This document shows, piece by piece, positions 1 through 11,640 of a stretch of DNA of 36,787 nt. The notes beneath the pieces are model-generated. The model was not told where the DNA came from. It saw only the letters and a program-made list of their open reading frames with translations, and searched no databases. Every line of letters starts with the position of its first letter. Positions within the stretch are counted from its first letter, which is position 1. Position numbers and translations under genes: made by a program. The stretch is from Planctomycetota bacterium (GTDB lineage: Bacteria; Planctomycetota; Phycisphaerae; UBA1845; Fen-1342): positions 1 to 36,787 of the forward strand of contig JACZRH010000007.1 in NCBI GenBank assembly GCA_022574815.1. Direction: 5' to 3'.

Positions 1-916
1 TTTCGAGCGGGCCCAGGTGTATCCCCATGCGTAAGTGGGACAAGAGGTAAAGCGTTTCTTCGGTGCTCAGGGTGCGGGCGTTTTCCAGTGTGCCGTAGGC
101 CCTCCAGATCTTGTCGTCGAGGGCGGTGGGACGCTCCTTCAGGAGCGCCTGTCGCGCCATCCTCTCGTAATCAACTATTTTCGGGATCACGACGCTGCAG
201 AACTCAGCAATAATGTCCTTTTCGCTCTTGCCCAGCGTGGTTTGATTGGAAATCTGATAGAAATCGCCTGTGGCTTCGGTCCCTTCTCCGTGCAGACCGC
301 GGACGGCGAGGCGCATGTTCTTGGCGGCGCGCGAGACTTTTTCCAACTCGCCGGCGAGCTTCAGCGCAGGCAAGTGCAGCATGACGGAGACACGAATTCC
401 CGTGCCCACATTCGTGGGGCAGGCCGTCAAAAAGCCGTATTGTTCGTGAAACGCGAAGTCGAGTTGCTGCTGGAGGATATCATCGAGTTTGTCGATTTGC
501 TCCCACAGTTGCTCCAGCCGGAATCCGCTGCCGAGGACCTGGATGCGCAGGTGATCTTCCTCGTTGATCATCAGCGCGAGGGTCTCTTTGTCGCTGACGG
601 CGACGCCGCGACTGCCTTCTCCTTCCGCGTGTTGACGGCTGATGAGGTGTCGCTCGACGAGCACTTGACGATCAAGGTCGGGCGCGTCCTCGATGTCCAC
701 GAAGAGGACGCGGCAGCCTAAGTCGGTGTGCATCACTCGATCGTAGAGCAAACGATAGATTTCGTTTCGCTGGCCGGTGTCGGACTTTGTCAGGAACGGA
801 AAACCGGCCAGATTGCGTGCCAGACGAATCCGCGAGGAAATGACGATGTCATTCATCGGCCCCGCGCCGCTGAGCCAGGTGCCTGTTCGTTTAGCGATGT
901 CGTCGATCATTTTCAT
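1..916 (-). CDS. mcsB: Protein arginine kinase McsB (3' end beyond window)
   Basis: McsB phosphorylates arginine side chains of proteins. In Firmicutes this marks them for the ClpC-ClpP protease. The 305 visible residues follow the ATP:guanido phosphotransferase fold: SSRIRLARNL (27-36), NEEDHLRIQ (118-126, with the acidic pair E119/E120), CPTNVGTG (166-173, with the reactive-site Cys166) and a Gly/Thr-rich segment near 207-230 (GLHGEGTEATGDFYQ). The family is about 350 residues long, so roughly 45 are missing off the left edge. The ATG at 916 overlaps the mcsA stop as ATGA (913-916), so the two are probably translationally coupled. All active-site motifs look intact and the assignment is firm. 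The target protease is not in the window. Confidence 0.95.
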   Translation of the reverse strand, partial: MKMIDDIAKRTGTWLSGAGPMNDIVISSRIRLARNLAGFPFLTKSDTGQRNEIYRLLYDRVMHTDLGCRVLFVDIEDAPDLDRQVLVERHLISRQHAEGEGSRGVAVSDKETLALMINEEDHLRIQVLGSGFRLEQLWEQIDKLDDILQQQLDFAFHEQYGFLTACPTNVGTGIRVSVMLHLPALKLAGELEKVSRAAKNMRLAVRGLHGEGTEATGDFYQISNQTTLGKSEKDIIAEFCSVVIPKIVDYERMARQALLKERPTALDDKIWRAYGTLENARTLSTEETLYLLSHLRMGIHLGPLE

Positions 917-2913: not shown

Positions 2914-2977
2914 ACCATCGCGTCTGCTTCGAATCCGAGTCTGTGGAATTCATTGTGCCTGATCCCGAGGAGCGAAT

Positions 2978-5266
2978 ATGTCGCAGCAGTGCATCGATGT
3001 GAGCTTTGTGGCTTCGTATGTTCCGCGGCAATGCGGCATCGCGACGTATACCAATGACTTGGCTACCAACCTCGCCGCACATGTGCATAAGGTAGCGCTC
3101 GCTGATGATGAGCATATCGGAATCGTTGCCCTGAACGATCGCGATGGTGAATACCAATACGGCGAGCGCGTGCAGTTCGAGATTCGGCAACACCATCGGG
3201 GCGACTATCGTAACGCCGCGGATTTTCTCAACACCAACAAGACGGACGTCATCAACTTGCAGCACGAGTACGGTCTGTTCGGAGGCGCCGATGGCAGGTA
3301 TGTCATCGAACTGCTCGAGCGCTTGAAGAAACCTGTGGTGACGACGTTGCACACCTTACTGAGCGAACCGTCCGAGGGACAGCGTCAAGTGTTGGGGAAG
3401 ATTGGCGAGCTGAGCGCTACCGTCGTCGTGCTTGCAGAGCGCGCGAAATGGCTGCTGGAGGATCGCTACGGCGTGGACGCCGAGAAGATCCGCATGATCC
3501 ATCACGGCACGCCGGACATTGAATTTCACGATCCCAACGAATTCAAAGAGCGCTTCATGGTCAAGGATCGACCGGTTCTTCTGACGTTCGGTTTGTTGGG
3601 TCCCGGCAAAGGCATCGAGACAATGCTGGATGCGCTGGCCATCGTCGCGCGACGGCATCCCAACGTAGCCTATATGATATTGGGCGCGACTCATCCGGCA
3701 GTGCGGCGGGAATCGGGCGAATCATATCGCCTCGGGCTGGAACGGCGGGCGGTGGACCTCGGTATCGCCAACAATGTCTTTTTCCATAATCATTATGTGA
3801 CGCTGCCGGTGCTGGTGGATTTTCTGAAGGCTGCTGATCTGTACGTCACGCCGTATCGCTCGAAGGAGCAAATCGTCTCGGGCACGTTGGCCTTCGCGGT
3901 GGCCTGTGGCAAAGCAGTTGTCTCGACACCCTATTGGTATGCTCAGGAACTGCTCGGCGACGGTCGGGGGCGACTGGTCGACTTCGACGACCCCGAAAGC
4001 ATGGCCTGCGGTATCAACGAACTGCTGGATGATGATGCTCTGCGGCTGGACCTTCAGAAAAAGGCCTACAAGTTCGGCCGCCAGATGATCTGGCCCGCGG
4101 TAGCGCGCGAGTATAACGATACGTACCAGAAAGTGCTCAAGCAGGCTGCGCGGTGGGCGCCGGTCGAGGTCGGCGCCGGGAAGCCGACGCTTCAATTGTC
4201 GCTGCCCGAGGTGCGCCTCGATCACATGTTTCTGCTTACCGATGACACTGGGATGTTGCAGCACGCAGTCTACTCGACTCCAGATCGCAACCACGGCTAT
4301 TGCACGGACGACAACGCTCGGGCGCTCCTCGCCGCCACCATGAGCTATCGCTTGCTGAGCGACGCGTCGGTCCTGCCGTATCTTGAGCGGTATCTTTCGT
4401 TTGTGGTCCATGCGTGGAACGATGAACTCAAACGTTTCCGCAACTTCATGTCGTATGATCGCCGCTGGCTGGATCAAGAGGGCACGGAGGACAGTTTGGC
4501 CCGCGTGATTTGGGCGCTGGGCTACTTGACAACCCATCCGCCGGCTGAGCAGGATCTCTCGCTGGCCGGCGAATTGTTCCACAAAGCGGTGGACTCGACG
4601 CGCTCCGTGGCGCATCCGCGTGCCCAGGCGCTGTGCATTATTGGTTTCAGTTACTACCTTCGGCGCTTCGAGGGGGCCACGCAGATCCGCGAGCGCATGC
4701 GAACGATGGCCGACGCTCTGTTTGCGCGATATGAACAGTATCGCAGCGACGATTGGGAATGGTGTGACGGGCACCTGACGTACAATAGCGGGCGCATGCC
4801 CCAGGCGCTTCTTCTTGCCGGGCAGGCGCTCGGAGAACAGCGATTTGTCGATTGCGGGATTCGTTCGCTGCAATGGCTGCTCAAGATCCACACGACGCCA
4901 AGCGGCGCGATCTCGCTGGTGGGCAACCGCGGGTGGTGGCCCAAGGGCGGCGAGCGGGCGGAGTTCGACCAACAGCCCATCGACGCGGCGGCCTTGGTCG
5001 GCGCCTGCAAGTCGGCCTATAAAGTCACTGGCGAGCAGAAGTGGCTCGCGCAGATGCGCCTCTGTTTCGAGTGGTTTCTGGGCAGGAACATCCTCGAAAC
5101 ACCTCTGGTGGACTTCAAAACGCGGGGCTGCTGCGACGGCCTCAATGCCGACGGCGTGAATCGCAATCAGGGCGCCGAGTCAACGTTGAGTTGGATTCTG
5201 TCCCTCTTGATTATGCACGAGATGCATCCCGGCGAGCCTCAGGATCAGGACGGCCGGATTGAGTGA
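2978..5266 (+). CDS. GT4 glycosyltransferase with C-terminal alpha/alpha-barrel-like domain
   Basis: The 762-residue protein has two parts. Residues 1 to about 400 form a GT-B glycosyltransferase of family 4: CGIATYTNDL at the N terminus, LQHEYGLFGG, a donor-site loop GLLGPGKGIETM near 205-216, and EQIVSGTLAFAVACGKAVV near 297, which corresponds to the EGFG-type sugar-nucleotide region. Residues from about 410 to 755 form a second helical, Trp- and Asp-rich domain (CTDDNARALLA, EWCDGHLTYNSGRMPQALL) resembling six-hairpin (alpha/alpha toroid) carbohydrate enzymes. Ordinary GT4 enzymes have about 400 residues. The likely role is synthesis or trimming of a surface or storage glycan; the sugar is unknown. 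GAGGAG (2967-2972) lies five bases before the ATG. The stop is in the same frame as tilS, three bases ahead of it. Confidence 0.85.
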   Translation: MSQQCIDVSFVASYVPRQCGIATYTNDLATNLAAHVHKVALADDEHIGIVALNDRDGEYQYGERVQFEIRQHHRGDYRNAADFLNTNKTDVINLQHEYGLFGGADGRYVIELLERLKKPVVTTLHTLLSEPSEGQRQVLGKIGELSATVVVLAERAKWLLEDRYGVDAEKIRMIHHGTPDIEFHDPNEFKERFMVKDRPVLLTFGLLGPGKGIETMLDALAIVARRHPNVAYMILGATHPAVRRESGESYRLGLERRAVDLGIANNVFFHNHYVTLPVLVDFLKAADLYVTPYRSKEQIVSGTLAFAVACGKAVVSTPYWYAQELLGDGRGRLVDFDDPESMACGINELLDDDALRLDLQKKAYKFGRQMIWPAVAREYNDTYQKVLKQAARWAPVEVGAGKPTLQLSLPEVRLDHMFLLTDDTGMLQHAVYSTPDRNHGYCTDDNARALLAATMSYRLLSDASVLPYLERYLSFVVHAWNDELKRFRNFMSYDRRWLDQEGTEDSLARVIWALGYLTTHPPAEQDLSLAGELFHKAVDSTRSVAHPRAQALCIIGFSYYLRRFEGATQIRERMRTMADALFARYEQYRSDDWEWCDGHLTYNSGRMPQALLLAGQALGEQRFVDCGIRSLQWLLKIHTTPSGAISLVGNRGWWPKGGERAEFDQQPIDAAALVGACKSAYKVTGEQKWLAQMRLCFEWFLGRNILETPLVDFKTRGCCDGLNADGVNRNQGAESTLSWILSLLIMHEMHPGEPQDQDGRIE

Positions 5267-6674: not shown

Positions 6675-7910
6675 ATGAGCCGGCGACCGCCGAGAGCCGC
6701 GCTGGGTTGGACCGTTTTCGGCGTCGCGTTTCTGTTGCGGGCGGCGTGGGTGCTCTACCGCTGGTCGACCAGCGGGCCGGAGCCGGAGTTTTCCGACGGC
6801 CAACTGCACCTCGACCTCGCCACGAATCTGATCGAGCGCGGCGAATTCGTTTCGGACGACGGTCACTACGCGGCGCGCATGCCGCTGTATCCGTTGTTCC
6901 TGGCGAGCTGCGCCTGGCTCGGACCGGCCGGCGTGCTCGTGGCGCGGCTGGCGCAGGCGGCGATCGGCGCGCTAACGGCGTGGGTGGCCTTCGTCTTCTG
7001 TGACGCGGCCTTGGGCCGCCGCCCCGCGTGGGTCGCCGGCGCAAGCGTGTGCTTCGATCCATACGCCATCTTCTTCGCGAACCTGCTGCTAACCGAAGTG
7101 CTCTTCACACTGATCGGGGTGGGTCTGGTGGCTTGCGCCTGGCACGTGGCCGACGGCGGAGACCGCGTTCGACGGATCGCGGTGGGCGGCGTCGCGGCGC
7201 TCGGGGCGGCGGCGGTCATGACGCGACCGTCGGCGGTCGGGTGGGTGCTGCTGCTGTGGCTGGTGCTGGGGTGGATGGATCGCAACCGGCGGCGCGCCGC
7301 CTGGCGCTCGGCGATTTACGCGGTCACGCTCGCAGCCGCCCTGTTGCCGTGGGGTCTGCGCAATCGCGCCGCGCTGGGGTCCTTCGCGTGGCTTTCGACC
7401 AACGGCGGCGTGACGCTGTACGACGCCCAGGGCCCGCAAGCCGACGGCAGCAGCAATCAGGCCTTTCTTGACGAGATGCCCGAGCTTGGGGGTTTGAGCG
7501 AAGTCGAGCAAGACCGCCGACTGCGCGACCTGGCGCTCGCGGAAATGAAGCGCGACGGCGTTCGCGTCCTGCAACTCGCTTGCGTCAAATTCCTGCGCAC
7601 CTGGAGCCCGGTCCCCAACGTCGCCGATTATCGCGGCGGCGCGACCGGCTTGGCGAGCGCCGTGTTCATGGCGCTGGTCGTCATCGCGGCTTCGATCGGC
7701 ATCGTCCGCACACGCAAGCGCACCCGGCTGCACGCGCTGTTGTGGCTGCCGATCGTCTACTTCACGCTCCTGCACTGTATCTACATAGGGAGCCTGCGCT
7801 ATCGCGTGCCGCTGATGCCGTTCCTGGAGATCACAGCCGCCGCGGCGTTCGTGGCGTCGGCCGGTTCGGGTCGGGTTGAATCTGAGAATCAGGTGCTCGC
7901 GGAGCGCTGA
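6675..7910 (+). CDS. ArnT/PMT-like membrane glycosyltransferase (GT39/GT83 type)
   Basis: The 411-residue integral membrane protein has about 9-10 hydrophobic segments, the first at residues 10-27. The first extracytoplasmic loop carries an acidic motif (EFSDGQLHLDLATNLI) followed by RMPLYPLFLAS, the arrangement of lipid-linked-sugar glycosyltransferases of the dolichyl-phosphate-mannose mannosyltransferase superfamily. These enzymes move a sugar from a polyprenyl-phosphate carrier to protein, lipid A or glycan at the outer face of the membrane. Donor and acceptor cannot be read from the sequence. The gene starts 13 bases after tilS. Its last 22 bases overlap the end of the convergent permease gene. 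Confidence 0.75.
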   Translation: MSRRPPRAALGWTVFGVAFLLRAAWVLYRWSTSGPEPEFSDGQLHLDLATNLIERGEFVSDDGHYAARMPLYPLFLASCAWLGPAGVLVARLAQAAIGALTAWVAFVFCDAALGRRPAWVAGASVCFDPYAIFFANLLLTEVLFTLIGVGLVACAWHVADGGDRVRRIAVGGVAALGAAAVMTRPSAVGWVLLLWLVLGWMDRNRRRAAWRSAIYAVTLAAALLPWGLRNRAALGSFAWLSTNGGVTLYDAQGPQADGSSNQAFLDEMPELGGLSEVEQDRRLRDLALAEMKRDGVRVLQLACVKFLRTWSPVPNVADYRGGATGLASAVFMALVVIAASIGIVRTRKRTRLHALLWLPIVYFTLLHCIYIGSLRYRVPLMPFLEITAAAAFVASAGSGRVESENQVLAER

Positions 7911-9082
7911 GCCGCGCGCTGCGCGCCATTGGCAAACAACTTCGCTCCGTACTTGCGCCAGAGCCCGAGTGCAATGAGCGCCGTCAACCCAATCGCGCTG
8001 ACGAGGTCCACCCAGGACGGCGCCGTGCAACAAATGTCCGCGCGGGTTAGAGCCCGCGGCACAAACGCCCCGAGTGCGTAGACGCCGTTCGTCGCATACC
8101 CCGCCAGCAGCGAGCAAGCCGCGATCGACACCAGATAGACCAGCACGCCGCGTCGACCGAGAATCCGATGCAGCAGGACGACGGAAGCCGCGTTCGTCGC
8201 CGGCCCCGCCAGCAGAAAGACCAGCCCGGCACCCGGCGATAAGCCCTCGCTGATCAGCACGGCGATCATCGGCGTGGCGGCGGCGGCGCAAACGTACATC
8301 GGAATCCCCGCCACGAGCATGATCAGGGGCGCCCAGGCCGATCCCAACGCCACACGCAGCTCAAAGTTGGCCAGCGCGACGGCGATCACGCCTGCCGCGA
8401 GAAAGCCCGCCAGCATGTAGATGCCCAAATCTTCGAACATCTCAATCATTCCGAATCGCAGCGCATCGCGCAGCCGCCCGACGAAAGTCCGCTGCGACCC
8501 GACCGGCGGTTCCGCAGCGCCCGTTCCGCCGTTCCCACCCGCCTCCGACGCGCAGCCGCACGAGTTTTTGATTTCAACGACGGTCCCGCCGCAACACGAA
8601 GGTGCCGCCGGCGACCCGTCGTCGTGCGGTGAATGTTCCGAACTGCTCTCTGCGGCCAGTTCGCCCTTGCTGTCGCCCCAGAGGTTTTGCGCCACCCCCG
8701 CCGCCAATGCCGTGCTCACCGCCGCGAGCGGCCGGGCGACGGTCATAACGGGGTCCATCAAAGCGTAAGTGACGGCGATGGAATCGACCCCGGTTTCCGG
8801 CGTCGAGATGAGAAAGGCCGTCGTGGCGCCTTTTCCGGCGCCGCGCTTGCGCAAGGCGGCGGCAACGGGCACGACCGAGCACGAACACAATGGCAGCGGC
8901 GCCCCGATGGCCGCGGCCCGCAGGACCGCGCCGAAGCGCCGCGAGCCCAGCCAGCGCATCACGCGATCCAAGGGCAGAAAGGCGTGGATCAAGCCCGCGA
9001 TGACAAAGCCGACCAGCAGGTAGGCCGCCGATTGCAGTACCAGCGCCCAGGTTTGTTGCCAGATGTCCGCCAGCAGATCCAC
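7889..9082 (-). CDS. SO_0444-type metal efflux permease (DUF318/ArsP superfamily)
   Basis: The 397-residue polytopic membrane protein carries the hallmark PLCSCSVVP (64-71 region, with Cys66 and Cys68) inside the first membrane block and a second block with AGPATNAAS. The two four- to five-helix halves are joined by a hydrophilic loop rich in Cys and His (PSCCGG at 162-166, NSCGCAS at 173-179) that probably binds metal. Members of this type are annotated as Cu/Zn efflux transporters; relatives move organoarsenicals. The GTG start at 9082 follows the arsR-like gene by nine bases, with GAGG six bases upstream. The pairing with a CadC-like sensor favours Zn, Cd or Pb over arsenic, which is inference. 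Confidence 0.85.
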   Translation of the reverse strand: MDLLADIWQQTWALVLQSAAYLLVGFVIAGLIHAFLPLDRVMRWLGSRRFGAVLRAAAIGAPLPLCSCSVVPVAAALRKRGAGKGATTAFLISTPETGVDSIAVTYALMDPVMTVARPLAAVSTALAAGVAQNLWGDSKGELAAESSSEHSPHDDGSPAAPSCCGGTVVEIKNSCGCASEAGGNGGTGAAEPPVGSQRTFVGRLRDALRFGMIEMFEDLGIYMLAGFLAAGVIAVALANFELRVALGSAWAPLIMLVAGIPMYVCAAAATPMIAVLISEGLSPGAGLVFLLAGPATNAASVVLLHRILGRRGVLVYLVSIAACSLLAGYATNGVYALGAFVPRALTRADICCTAPSWVDLVSAIGLTALIALGLWRKYGAKLFANGAQRAAQRSAST

Positions 9083-9091
9083 GGTCCGCCT

Positions 9092-9487
9092 CTAGTCGTG
9101 TTGAACGTGATCGAGCACGAGTTCGACGATCCGGCCGACATGCTCGTCGTCGAGCCGGTAATACACCCTCTTTCCGTCGCGTTCGGGCCGCACGAGGCGT
9201 TCGGATCGCAGCAGCCGCAACTGGTGCGAGACGCCGGAGCGAGACACGCCCACGAGCGTGGCGATGTCACAGACGCAGAGGCGCTCCTCGAGCATCAGGG
9301 CCCGCACAATCTTCATGCGGGTCGGGTCGGCGAGGGCCTTGAGCGTCTCGGCGGCCCAGAGCAGCACGTCGCTGGGCTCGAGGCGCTTGTGTACGCGGCG
9401 GACGCGGGCGAGATCGACAATGTTCTCGGCGCACAGTTCGTCAAATGGTCGTTGCGACGCGCTCTGCGATCGGGCGGGTTTCACCAC
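9092..9487 (-). CDS. ArsR/SmtB-family metal sensor, CadC-like
   Basis: The 131-residue winged-helix repressor has both metal sites known from CadC. The alpha3 site LCVCD supplies Cys71 and Cys73, with a third Cys (Cys19) in an N-terminal arm. The alpha5 site is Asp114-x-His116-x10-His127-xx-His130, the spacing of CadC/SmtB, with His in place of the last Glu. The recognition helix is in VGVSRSGVSHQLRLL. Metal binding should release DNA and switch on the downstream permease. The start is GTG at 9487 or GTG at 9484; GGAG in the leader is four or seven bases away, so the second start is equally plausible. A TATAAC box (9501-9496) next to the operator makes the leader only a few bases long. Confidence 0.92.
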   Translation of the reverse strand: MVKPARSQSASQRPFDELCAENIVDLARVRRVHKRLEPSDVLLWAAETLKALADPTRMKIVRALMLEERLCVCDIATLVGVSRSGVSHQLRLLRSERLVRPERDGKRVYYRLDDEHVGRIVELVLDHVQHD

Positions 9488-9495
9488 GGGTCTCC

Positions 9496-9529
9496 GTTAT
9501 ACAAACATATGAGCAATTACTCATATGTT
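9496..9529 (-). promoter_or_regulatory. 12-2-12 operator and overlapping -10 box of the metal-efflux operon
   Basis: AACATATGAG (9504-9513) and CTCATATGTT (9520-9529) are perfect inverted repeats with a six-base centre. Read as 12-2-12 (9504-9515 / 9518-9529), 11 of 12 pairs match, the classical form of ArsR/SmtB operators (ATATGAnnA type). On the minus strand the -10 box TATAAC (9501-9496) abuts the operator, so the -35/spacer region lies inside it and a bound repressor would block RNA polymerase. This AT-rich block stands out in a GC-rich neighbourhood. Confidence 0.85.
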
Positions 9530-9710
9530 ACCACAAGAACGGCCCGCCGGCAAACGGGCTCGACGGGGTTTTCTGCCACGGCTCCCCCAAGGCCGGCGGA
9601 TCGAAATCGCGATTCCCGGACCTTGCCGGTCGGGGGCCGCCACGCATGGCATTTCCGCCGGCGTATCGCTATACTTCGCACCTTCCAAACGTTTCATCCA
9701 AGGCAGGCCT

Positions 9711-10181
9711 ATGGAACTTTCAAAGATACTCACGGAAGATCATGTTCGCGTGCCGCTCAGCGCAACCGACAAGTCCGCCGCCATCACGGAATTGATCGAC
9801 CTGCTGGCCGCGCAGGGCGGGTTGATCGATCGCGACGGGGCGCTCGACGCCGTCCTGAAACGCGAGGCCGAACGGACCACCGGCATCGGCTACGGCTTGG
9901 CGATCCCGCACGGGAAAAGCAATGGCTGCAAAGACCTGGTGATCGCCGCCGGCAAGCCGGCCGAGCCGATCGACTTCCAGAGTCTCGACGGGCGCCCGGT
10001 GACGTTCATCGTACTGCTGGTGAGTCCGCCGAATCAGACCGGGCCGCACATTCAGGCCCTCGCCAAGATCAGCCGGCTCATGAACATCGAGGAATTCCGC
10101 AACGCGGTGGACGCCGCCACGACCCCGGGCGCGCTGCACGCCGCCATCGCGACCTACGAGACCAACAACGCGTCCGGATAA
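9711..10181 (+). CDS. PTS EIIA-Ntr/fructose-type protein (PtsN-like)
   Basis: The 156-residue protein matches a whole PTS IIA domain of the fructose/nitrogen class: helix-strand start MELSKILTEDHV, then GIGYGLAIPHGKS, where His67 is the phosphorylated residue, and the closing region PPNQTGPHIQALAKISRLM. No EIIB or EIIC domain follows, so it is probably regulatory and receives phosphate from NPr/EI encoded elsewhere. The ATG at 9711 follows AAGG with 9 bases between. An upstream in-frame extension to 9525 shows no family similarity. A TATACT box at 9670-9675 is a possible -10, with no convincing -35. The next gene is a phosphatase 199 bases downstream; the gap holds a GC-rich stem (10246-10271) without a T run. 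Confidence 0.88.
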   Translation: MELSKILTEDHVRVPLSATDKSAAITELIDLLAAQGGLIDRDGALDAVLKREAERTTGIGYGLAIPHGKSNGCKDLVIAAGKPAEPIDFQSLDGRPVTFIVLLVSPPNQTGPHIQALAKISRLMNIEEFRNAVDAATTPGALHAAIATYETNNASG

Positions 10182-10380
10182 CCACTCGTCACTCCCCCAT
10201 CACGGCCCCCCTCCGCCAACGTCGGCCGGAATCCCCTTGAAAGACCCCGCGGCAGGTGGGCGCCCTGCGGGCCGCGTTCAGCGCTGTCCAAGTCGCGCGC
10301 CGGGCTAGCCGATTTGTACCCAAGCCGAGCTCCGTCGCGCTGTCGCGCAACGGACGCCGAGCGACGAAGGGAAGTGGGTC

Positions 10381-11640
10381 ATGCCGACGCCGCACGTACA
10401 GGTCATTCTCGCGGACGAGACCATTCCGGAGGCGCTGGAGACCGCTCTGCGCACCAGCGGCGTGTCGGCCAGTTTTCGCCCGCTGGACGACGCCATTCGT
10501 GACGGCCGTGTGCCTTCGGCGGACGCCTTTGTCGTGGTGGCGCCGGCGGATTCGCGCTCGATCAGGGCCGGTCTGAAGGTCCTCTTCAGCCGTCTCGCCG
10601 ACCGGCCGCGGGCCACGCTGGTGCTCAAATCGGACAACGGCTACATGCCGAAGATCGCCCATCCGCCGGTCCTGCCCGTCTCATTCGCGTGTGGGCTGGT
10701 GGCCGAGGAGTTGGTCGTGCGTCTTTCCACGATGCTGGAGATGAGCACGTCGCTCGAGTCGATGAGCCGCGCCGCCGCCGCCGGCCGGGCGACCGACGAA
10801 GCGTTCCAACGGCGGCAACGCGACCAGCTCCGTCTGGCGAGCCGGGTGCAGCGCGATCTGTTGCCCGCGCGCACGAGCACCTTTGGCCGCGTTCGTGTTT
10901 CGGCGGTGTTTCGCCCGGCCGACTGTGTCTCGGGCGATATCTACGATGTGCAACGCCTGGACGAAAAGCACATCGGCGTCGCGATCGCCGACGCCGCCGG
11001 CTCGGACATTCCCACGGCCCTGCTGACCGTCTTCATCAAGCGGGCGCTGCGCGGCAAGGAGACGCACGCGGACGGCTATCGGATCCTGCGCCCGTCCCAG
11101 GTGCTCGAGCGTCTCAACCGCCTGATCCTCGAGGCCGATTTGCCCACCTGCCCGCTTGTGTCGGTCAGTTACGCCGCCATCAACATCGAGACGCTCGAGG
11201 TTTCGCTGTCGCGCGGCGGCGGGCCGTATCCGATCGTTCGTCGTGCGAACGGAACGCTCGAGCCGCTTCAGCCCGCCGGCAGCATCCTGGGGGTCCTGCC
11301 CGACGCTGAATTTGAAGAGCAGAGTGCTCGGCTTCGACCCGGCGACACGCTGTTGCTCCATAGCGATGGGTTGGAGAGGGTATTCGCCCCCGACGAGTCG
11401 GCCGGCCCAACGGGCGTGGGGTTCGACCGCGATGCAAACGCCGGCGTGCCAACGGGCGGCGCAAGCTCGGCGACGAAGCAGGGCACGGAGACGCTGACTC
11501 GATCGACATGGACCGCCATGCTGCGCAAGGAAGGCGTCGAGGCGGCGCTCGAACAAGTCGCCAGCCGACACGAAATCCTGCAGCGGGTCGGCCATCCGGT
11601 GGATGATCTCACGGCGGTTGCCGTGCAAGTCAAGAGCTGA
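10381..11640 (+). CDS. SpoIIE/RsbU-type PP2C phosphatase with degenerate N-terminal receiver-like domain
   Basis: The 419-residue protein is a serine phosphatase of the RsbU/SpoIIE type, which normally dephosphorylates an anti-sigma-factor antagonist. A helical linker (LASRVQRDLLP) leads into the catalytic domain: SGDIYD with Asp186, IADAAGSD with Asp204, LLHSDGLE with Asp329 and HPVDDLTAV with Asp408/409, so the metal-binding aspartates are present. The usual GHG after the second Asp is GSD here. Residues 1 to about 105 look like an alpha/beta receiver domain (VQVILADET... FVVVAPADS), but no phosphorylatable Asp ends the third strand. An Ala/Gly/Thr-rich insert lies near 340-370. GGGAAG precedes the ATG. 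No anti-sigma or STAS gene adjoins it. Confidence 0.87.
   Translation: MPTPHVQVILADETIPEALETALRTSGVSASFRPLDDAIRDGRVPSADAFVVVAPADSRSIRAGLKVLFSRLADRPRATLVLKSDNGYMPKIAHPPVLPVSFACGLVAEELVVRLSTMLEMSTSLESMSRAAAAGRATDEAFQRRQRDQLRLASRVQRDLLPARTSTFGRVRVSAVFRPADCVSGDIYDVQRLDEKHIGVAIADAAGSDIPTALLTVFIKRALRGKETHADGYRILRPSQVLERLNRLILEADLPTCPLVSVSYAAINIETLEVSLSRGGGPYPIVRRANGTLEPLQPAGSILGVLPDAEFEEQSARLRPGDTLLLHSDGLERVFAPDESAGPTGVGFDRDANAGVPTGGASSATKQGTETLTRSTWTAMLRKEGVEAALEQVASRHEILQRVGHPVDDLTAVAVQVKS

Follow-up and report, generated by a model that had tools for sequence, protein, structure and literature searches.

The DNA analyzed here, a stretch of 36,787 nucleotides from a Planctomycetota bacterium that will be referred to as the window, carries what is very probably a metal-relieved, autorepressing bicistronic efflux operon, made of a predicted CadC-type sensor and an SO_0444-family permease. 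The genes, their order, the palindrome next to them, and the conservation of both this palindrome and the metal ligands are established in this work, and the coordinates are collected in Table 1. For the working of the switch, we infer dimer formation, binding to DNA and repression, together with the metal involved, its sensing site, and export by the permease. When no metal is in excess, a dimer of the CadC-type regulator would sit on the palindrome at 9504-9529, so that the promoter driving the regulator and permease genes is blocked. A metal of thiophilic or borderline character (Zn, Cd or Pb being the likeliest, with Cu as a possibility) would then bind Cys19-Cys71-Cys73 and/or the inter-subunit site Asp114-His116-His127'-His130'; the metal-bound regulator would leave the DNA, and regulator and permease would be made until the metal is exported. 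The original prediction, which had read this region as a metal-sensor switch, is supported in the main, and so is each of its three parts, namely the ligand set, the operator, and the SO_0444-type permease.

Table 1. Features of the predicted efflux operon, with positions counted from the first letter of the window.
Feature	Position	Strand	Remarks
SO_0444-family Cu/Zn efflux permease (PF03773)	7889..9082	(-)	397 aa, GTG start
ArsR/SmtB-family regulator, CadC type	9092..9487	(-)	131 aa, GTG start; assigned by NF033788, PF01022, sequence and fold
Codons 114-130 with D114, H116, H127, H130, predicted alpha5 site	9098..9148	(-)	helix 115-130 in the model
Codons 71-73, Cys-Val-Cys, predicted alpha3N ligands Cys71 and Cys73	9269..9277	(-)	
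Cys19 codon, predicted N-terminal alpha3N ligand	9431..9433	(-)	in register with CadC Cys7
Candidate -10 TATAAC of the original prediction, weak	9496..9501	(-)	
12-2-12 operator palindrome (predicted)	9504..9529	.	symmetry and conservation in relatives
Candidate promoter TTGCCG-17-TAACAT, weak, 8/12	9525..9553	(-)	-10 overlaps the upstream operator arm; position matches relatives

The regulator has the winged-helix HTH domain of the ArsR/SmtB metalloregulators, as indicated by its scores against NF033788 (98.6 bits, cut-off 55) and PF01022 (50.6 bits, cut-off 22), and by a fold match with Z of about 17; no equivalog-level NCBIfam model exceeded its own cut-off for this protein. By sequence, it lies nearest to SmtB (6.4e-19) and CadC (1.8e-18). 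The structural model was built from an alignment of 42 sequences, that is the window and 41 of the 75 related loci described below, mostly the closer ones, and has a mean pLDDT of 88.2, with residues 1-14 below 50; it displays the topology of the family, including a helix at 115-130. The top fold matches of the model are CadC, SmtB and CzrA. CadC (1u2w) ranks first, with Z 17.2, rmsd 1.7 and 107 aligned residues (23..130 of the model on 11..117 of 1u2w), mycobacterial SmtB (8qkf) and CzrA (Z 16.5 to 17.1) being tied with it within 1 Z; among these three, CadC is the one aligned over 107 residues. As for a second close paralogue of the regulator, the search returned only one weak match (35%, E 7.1e-4).

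The two predicted metal sites correspond to those of CadC, whose ligands are C7/C11/C58/C60 and D101/H103/H114/E117 (PMC1665450). Sequence comparison places regulator residue 25 on CadC 13 and superimposes LCVCD on LCVCD, so that Cys71 and Cys73 correspond to Cys58 and Cys60, and the fold comparison places residue 23 on CadC 11. Ungapped extension of this register brings Cys19 onto CadC Cys7, CadC itself being absent from the 76-row alignment of the 75 related loci and the window; Cys19 is also aligned with a Cys of Lmo1102 (9t6r). The regulator accordingly combines the LCVCD cysteine pair and an N-terminal Cys at the position of Cys7 with an alpha5 motif D-x-H-x10-H-x2-(E/H) provided by D114, H116, H127 and H130. 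The fourth thiolate, at CadC Cys11, does not define the type and is replaced by Ile23, and His130 stands at CadC E117. All seven residues named in the original prediction (C19, C71, C73, D114, H116, H127 and H130) are present at the numbers given there, and its assignment of a CadC-type two-site ligand set is supported.

These positions are widely but not uniformly kept in the 76-row alignment, where Cys occupies position 19 in 55, position 71 in 57 and position 73 in 52 of the 76 rows; for alpha5, D114 is Asp in 52, H116 is His in 58 and H127 is His in 50, and the last position is divided between His (28) and Glu (28). The three shared alpha5 residues D114, H116 and H127 reach at least 90% conservation in the 42-sequence alignment, which holds mostly the closer relatives. 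Both sites together (C71, C73, D114, H116, H127 and E or H at 130) are found in 29 of the 76 rows, every one of which has Cys at column 19; 22 of these sequences end in D-H-H-E and seven, the window included, in D-H-H-H, and the Cys at the C11 position is absent from 21 of the 29, the window among them. The single N-terminal Cys is not unusual, and the same holds for the final His, because Cys11 of CadC is not absolutely required (PMC4287715), alpha3N sites are described as using one or two N-terminal Cys (PMC8790569), and CzrA has the alpha5 ligands D84/H86/H97/H100 (PMC1665450). The final His, in place of Glu, had been singled out: the residue is indeed there, but as a peculiarity it is ruled out, being part of the CzrA set and of seven two-site sequences.

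The predicted operator is the 26-mer AACATATGAGCAATTACTCATATGTT at 9504-9529, which equals its own reverse complement at 24 of 26 positions, with a 2-bp center flanked by 12-bp arms that agree at 11 of 12 positions. Among all 26-mers of the window it ranks first in symmetry (the next best reaches 22/26), and with spacers of 0-8 no other place in the window has 12-bp arms agreeing at 11 positions or more. The symmetry was measured by a script, as the inverted-repeat finder reported no pair. Such an inverted repeat near the start of the regulated gene is, by sequence, what is described for operators of the SmtB/ArsR family, which are of the 12-2-12 type (PMC8790569), and the almost perfect symmetry originally claimed for it holds. 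A pattern derived from the site, with up to three mismatches, occurs once in the window and in none of 100 shuffles, and the core TATGAG-N6-CTCATA, with up to two mismatches, also occurs once and without any mismatch, at least one match being found in 20 of 100 shuffles (mean 0.23). The search for the same palindrome across the genome that had been suggested was run as well: the 20-bp core, at up to two mismatches, is found at a single place in the assembly of the host, which comprises 4.48 Mb and is 84% complete. The reversed pattern gives two places per strand in this assembly, so the core at this tolerance does not by itself set the site apart from chance; it is the exact match at the right place, together with the conservation in relatives, that speaks against a chance occurrence. 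The operator looks private to this operon in the 84% complete assembly, and a regulon extending beyond the operon was discarded, as no further operator was found there.

Regarding the promoter, three candidate pairs of boxes tie at 8/12, and a general promoter scan listed none for the operon, including these three. The -10 box TATAAC that had been proposed as adjoining the operator pairs only with ATGAGT, at a spacing of 17 bp, and an mRNA starting from it would begin approximately at the start codon, almost leaderless, with GGAG outside the message. The other two candidates are TTGCCG-17-TAACAT and GTAACA-16-TATGTT. In the eight relatives with a paired permease, TTGACA or TTGACG precedes the 20-bp core by 24 to 35 bp and the -10 begins 1 to 12 bp before it; two of them (L012 and L016) have a further pair, straddling the operator, with the better score (11 vs 9). 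Judged by position, TTGCCG-17-TAACAT, although equally weak, fits these relatives better than TATAAC. An overlap of operator and promoter is likely from these candidate boxes, and this part of the original prediction stays plausible, while the -10 that it named is uncertain.

The permease gene starts 9 bp after the stop codon of the regulator, on the same strand, and its product scores 349.6 bits against the curated equivalog NF033936, “SO_0444 family Cu/Zn efflux transporter” (cut-off 300), and 151.6 bits against PF03773, ArsP_1 (cut-off 32.3); no related solved structure was found at E 0.01. From this family assignment, the protein is predicted to export Cu/Zn. In line with this family, SO_0444 is required for growth under ZnSO4 or CuCl2 stress and shares its operon with the putative ZntR ortholog SO_0443, which is predicted to regulate it (PMC3219624), and in Nitratiruptor an SO_0444-family gene forms one cluster with a winged-helix regulator, both being up-regulated under Cd and Cu (PMC10092412). 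The permease had also been described as having a Cys-rich loop. Both the family and the loop are real, but only two of the four loop cysteines recur widely: in a 35-row alignment, in which the loop of one relative (L028) came out empty and is probably misaligned, C163 is Cys in 24 rows, C164 in 26 and C177 in 13, and C175 belongs to the window alone. Elsewhere in the protein, C66 and C68 are Cys in 34 rows and C265 in 33.

Downstream follows a convergent ORF (6675-7910, +), which shares 22 bp (7889-7910) with the 3' end of the permease gene and has no Pfam or NCBIfam match at E 0.01; with this convergent ORF directly downstream, the operon looks bicistronic. On the other side, divergent from the operon (9711-11640), lie a PTS EIIA-like gene (PF00359; ends at 10181, +) and then a gene for a SpoIIE-type phosphatase (PF07228).

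A protein scan with the regulator gave 75 related loci, eight of which are paired with a permease (L004, L007, L012, L016, L028, L040, L043 and L048), the permease following the regulator match on the same strand after 16 to 294 bp. These loci belong to Planctomycetota, Nitrospinota, “Proteobacteria”, Desulfobacteraceae (two), Desulfobulbaceae, and Fibrobacteraceae (two). Together with a ninth pair outside the host (L113), they all have a window-like permease within 300 bp downstream, with tblastn scores of 174 to 401 bits; the permease of L004, at the same place as the one in genome G018, reaches 377.8 bits and is the only one of the eight scored against NF033936. Two further loci, L079 and L084, represent the same place as L004, with identical match scores, and this place was counted once. 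Three loci with weak permease matches were excluded from the count of pairs, namely L008 (69 bits, opposite strand), L063 (50) and L067 (58), the latter two downstream; their best operator scores were 9, 9 and 10, values that 92, 89 and 40 of 100 shuffles also attained, respectively. The permease of L109 is below the family cut-off, and the ArsR-like gene upstream of it is a different one, of weak similarity (47 bits). Two plasmid matches of the regulator, out of 20 listed, were inspected, and no SO_0444 permease adjoins either of them.

The operator recurs with the pair. A scripted listing of palindromes upstream recovered it at six of the eight paired loci, and L004 and L048 have less symmetric sites, which were read from the sequence. 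Against the consensus ATATGAR-N6-YTCATAT, written after these eight sites had been seen, the eight loci score 12 to 14 of 14, with none of 100 shuffles as good in any case. Seventeen of the other 67 loci reach at least 12, with at most one of 100 shuffles each, and 50 of the 75 score less than 12, so not every relative of the regulator has an operator-like site. In the pair of L113, which belongs to a different family of the phylum, the site TTTGAG-N6-TTCAAA is symmetric and scores only 10 of 14 (5/100 shuffles).

Nearer the host, the pair is rare. When the host is taken together with 60 genomes of its family and order, 27 of these 61 carry a permease above the cut-off, and only two, the host and G018, have the regulator at E 1e-15. 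Of the 28 permease places above the cut-off, 27 were fetched, with flanks of up to 1.5 kb that in some cases end at contig ends, and the regulator (tblastn, E 1e-3) was found only at those of the host and G018, from which it appears that the permease usually works without it near the host. Permeases of the SO_0444 family (L080-L106) are thus common in the family and order of the host, and at 25 of the 27 fetched loci no CadC-type regulator adjoins them. Across 392 genomes of the phylum, nine, among them the host, carry the regulator at E 1e-18, and one of the other eight (L113) has an adjoining permease. A pairing that is rare near the host and recurs in distant phyla is in line with horizontal spread or repeated assembly.

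Which site senses the metal, and which metal, admits of several readings. That the alpha3N Cys site alone responds, to Cd, Pb or Zn as in CadC, with alpha5 having a structural role, is a real possibility, somewhat short of an even chance: CadC is first by fold, over 107 residues if within 1 Z of SmtB and CzrA, Cys19 is in register with Cys7, and the missing Cys11 counts for little, being reported as not strictly needed in CadC (PMC4287715) and absent from most two-site sequences, the window included. The near invariance of D114, H116 and H127 in the 42-sequence alignment argues against it, as do two paired relatives from Fibrobacteraceae (L043 and L048, regulator at about 2959-3267), which keep the operator-like site, the permease and the alpha5 ligands D114, H116 and H127 and have no Cys site. 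The Cys site is hence not required for pairing, and in some relatives the alpha5 site alone may be sufficient. The same two loci favor the reading in which alpha5 alone senses metal (Zn), as in SmtB and CzrA, with a Cys site that is vestigial or tunes affinity, and so do the complete D-H-H-H set, identical to that of CzrA (PMC1665450), and the ties of the permease family to Zn and Cu (PMC3219624). We regard this reading as possible, with our judgement leaning against it, since the three Cys that match those needed in CadC are kept here and accompany alpha5 in 29 of the 76 rows, and a review describes the second Zn site of CadC as structural and not regulatory (PMC4287715).

A more ambitious version of the switch would make both sites regulatory in a hybrid sensor that joins the three-Cys site of CadC to the full CzrA-like D-H-H-H set, so that one repressor opens an SO_0444 pump for thiophilic (Cd/Pb/Cu) and borderline (Zn) metals, the unit of CadC-type regulator, permease and operator having moved across phyla and displaced other ways of controlling the permease; we consider this rather unlikely. 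Very improbable is a sensor for As(III) or Sb(III) with an arsenical exporter. The name ArsP_1 of the PF03773 family, the three Cys of the regulator, and the presence of the antimony repressor AntR among the fold matches (6uvu, with Z 15.3 but an rmsd of 4.7) point that way. The more specific NCBIfam model, however, is the SO_0444 Cu/Zn efflux one, the site of E. coli R773 ArsR is C32-C34-C37 (PMC4287715) whereas position 76 of the regulator is Ala, and none of the three neighboring genes tested is an ars gene.

The predicted metal-relieved operon can finally be set beside known systems. Staphylococcus aureus pI258 CadC (1u2w) shares with the regulator the fold, the positions of C7/C58/C60 and D101/H103/H114, and the LCVCD box, and differs in having C11 where Ile23 is found here and E117 in place of His130. 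CadC serves the CadA P-type ATPase, whereas the target here would be an SO_0444 permease. CzrA of S. aureus has the same alpha5 set and fold but is described as devoid of the alpha3N site and of N-terminal metal-sensing residues (PMC1665450). Synechococcus SmtB resembles the regulator in fold, alpha5 site and 12-2-12 operator type, and differs in having E120 and, according to the same source, in that only its alpha5 site is functional (PMC1665450). In Shewanella oneidensis, SO_0443-SO_0444 likewise joins an SO_0444-family permease and a metal regulator in one operon, but SO_0443 is a putative ZntR ortholog (PMC3219624) and not an ArsR/SmtB repressor as here. One narrow literature search, on SO_0444 and efflux, found no CadC-type regulator of an SO_0444 permease in the passages that it returned, the regulators named there being ZntR-like or an unspecified winged-helix protein.

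The switch is an ordinary one, of the standard kind for bacterial metal resistance, and involves no new principle. What is mildly uncommon, from the sequences compared, is a sensor of the CadC type, not a ZntR-like one, beside an SO_0444 permease, an arrangement that recurs in several phyla. CadC-type control would in this way be extended to SO_0444 permeases, and because some paired relatives have the Cys site and others lack it, the group would offer a compact natural test of which metal site senses.
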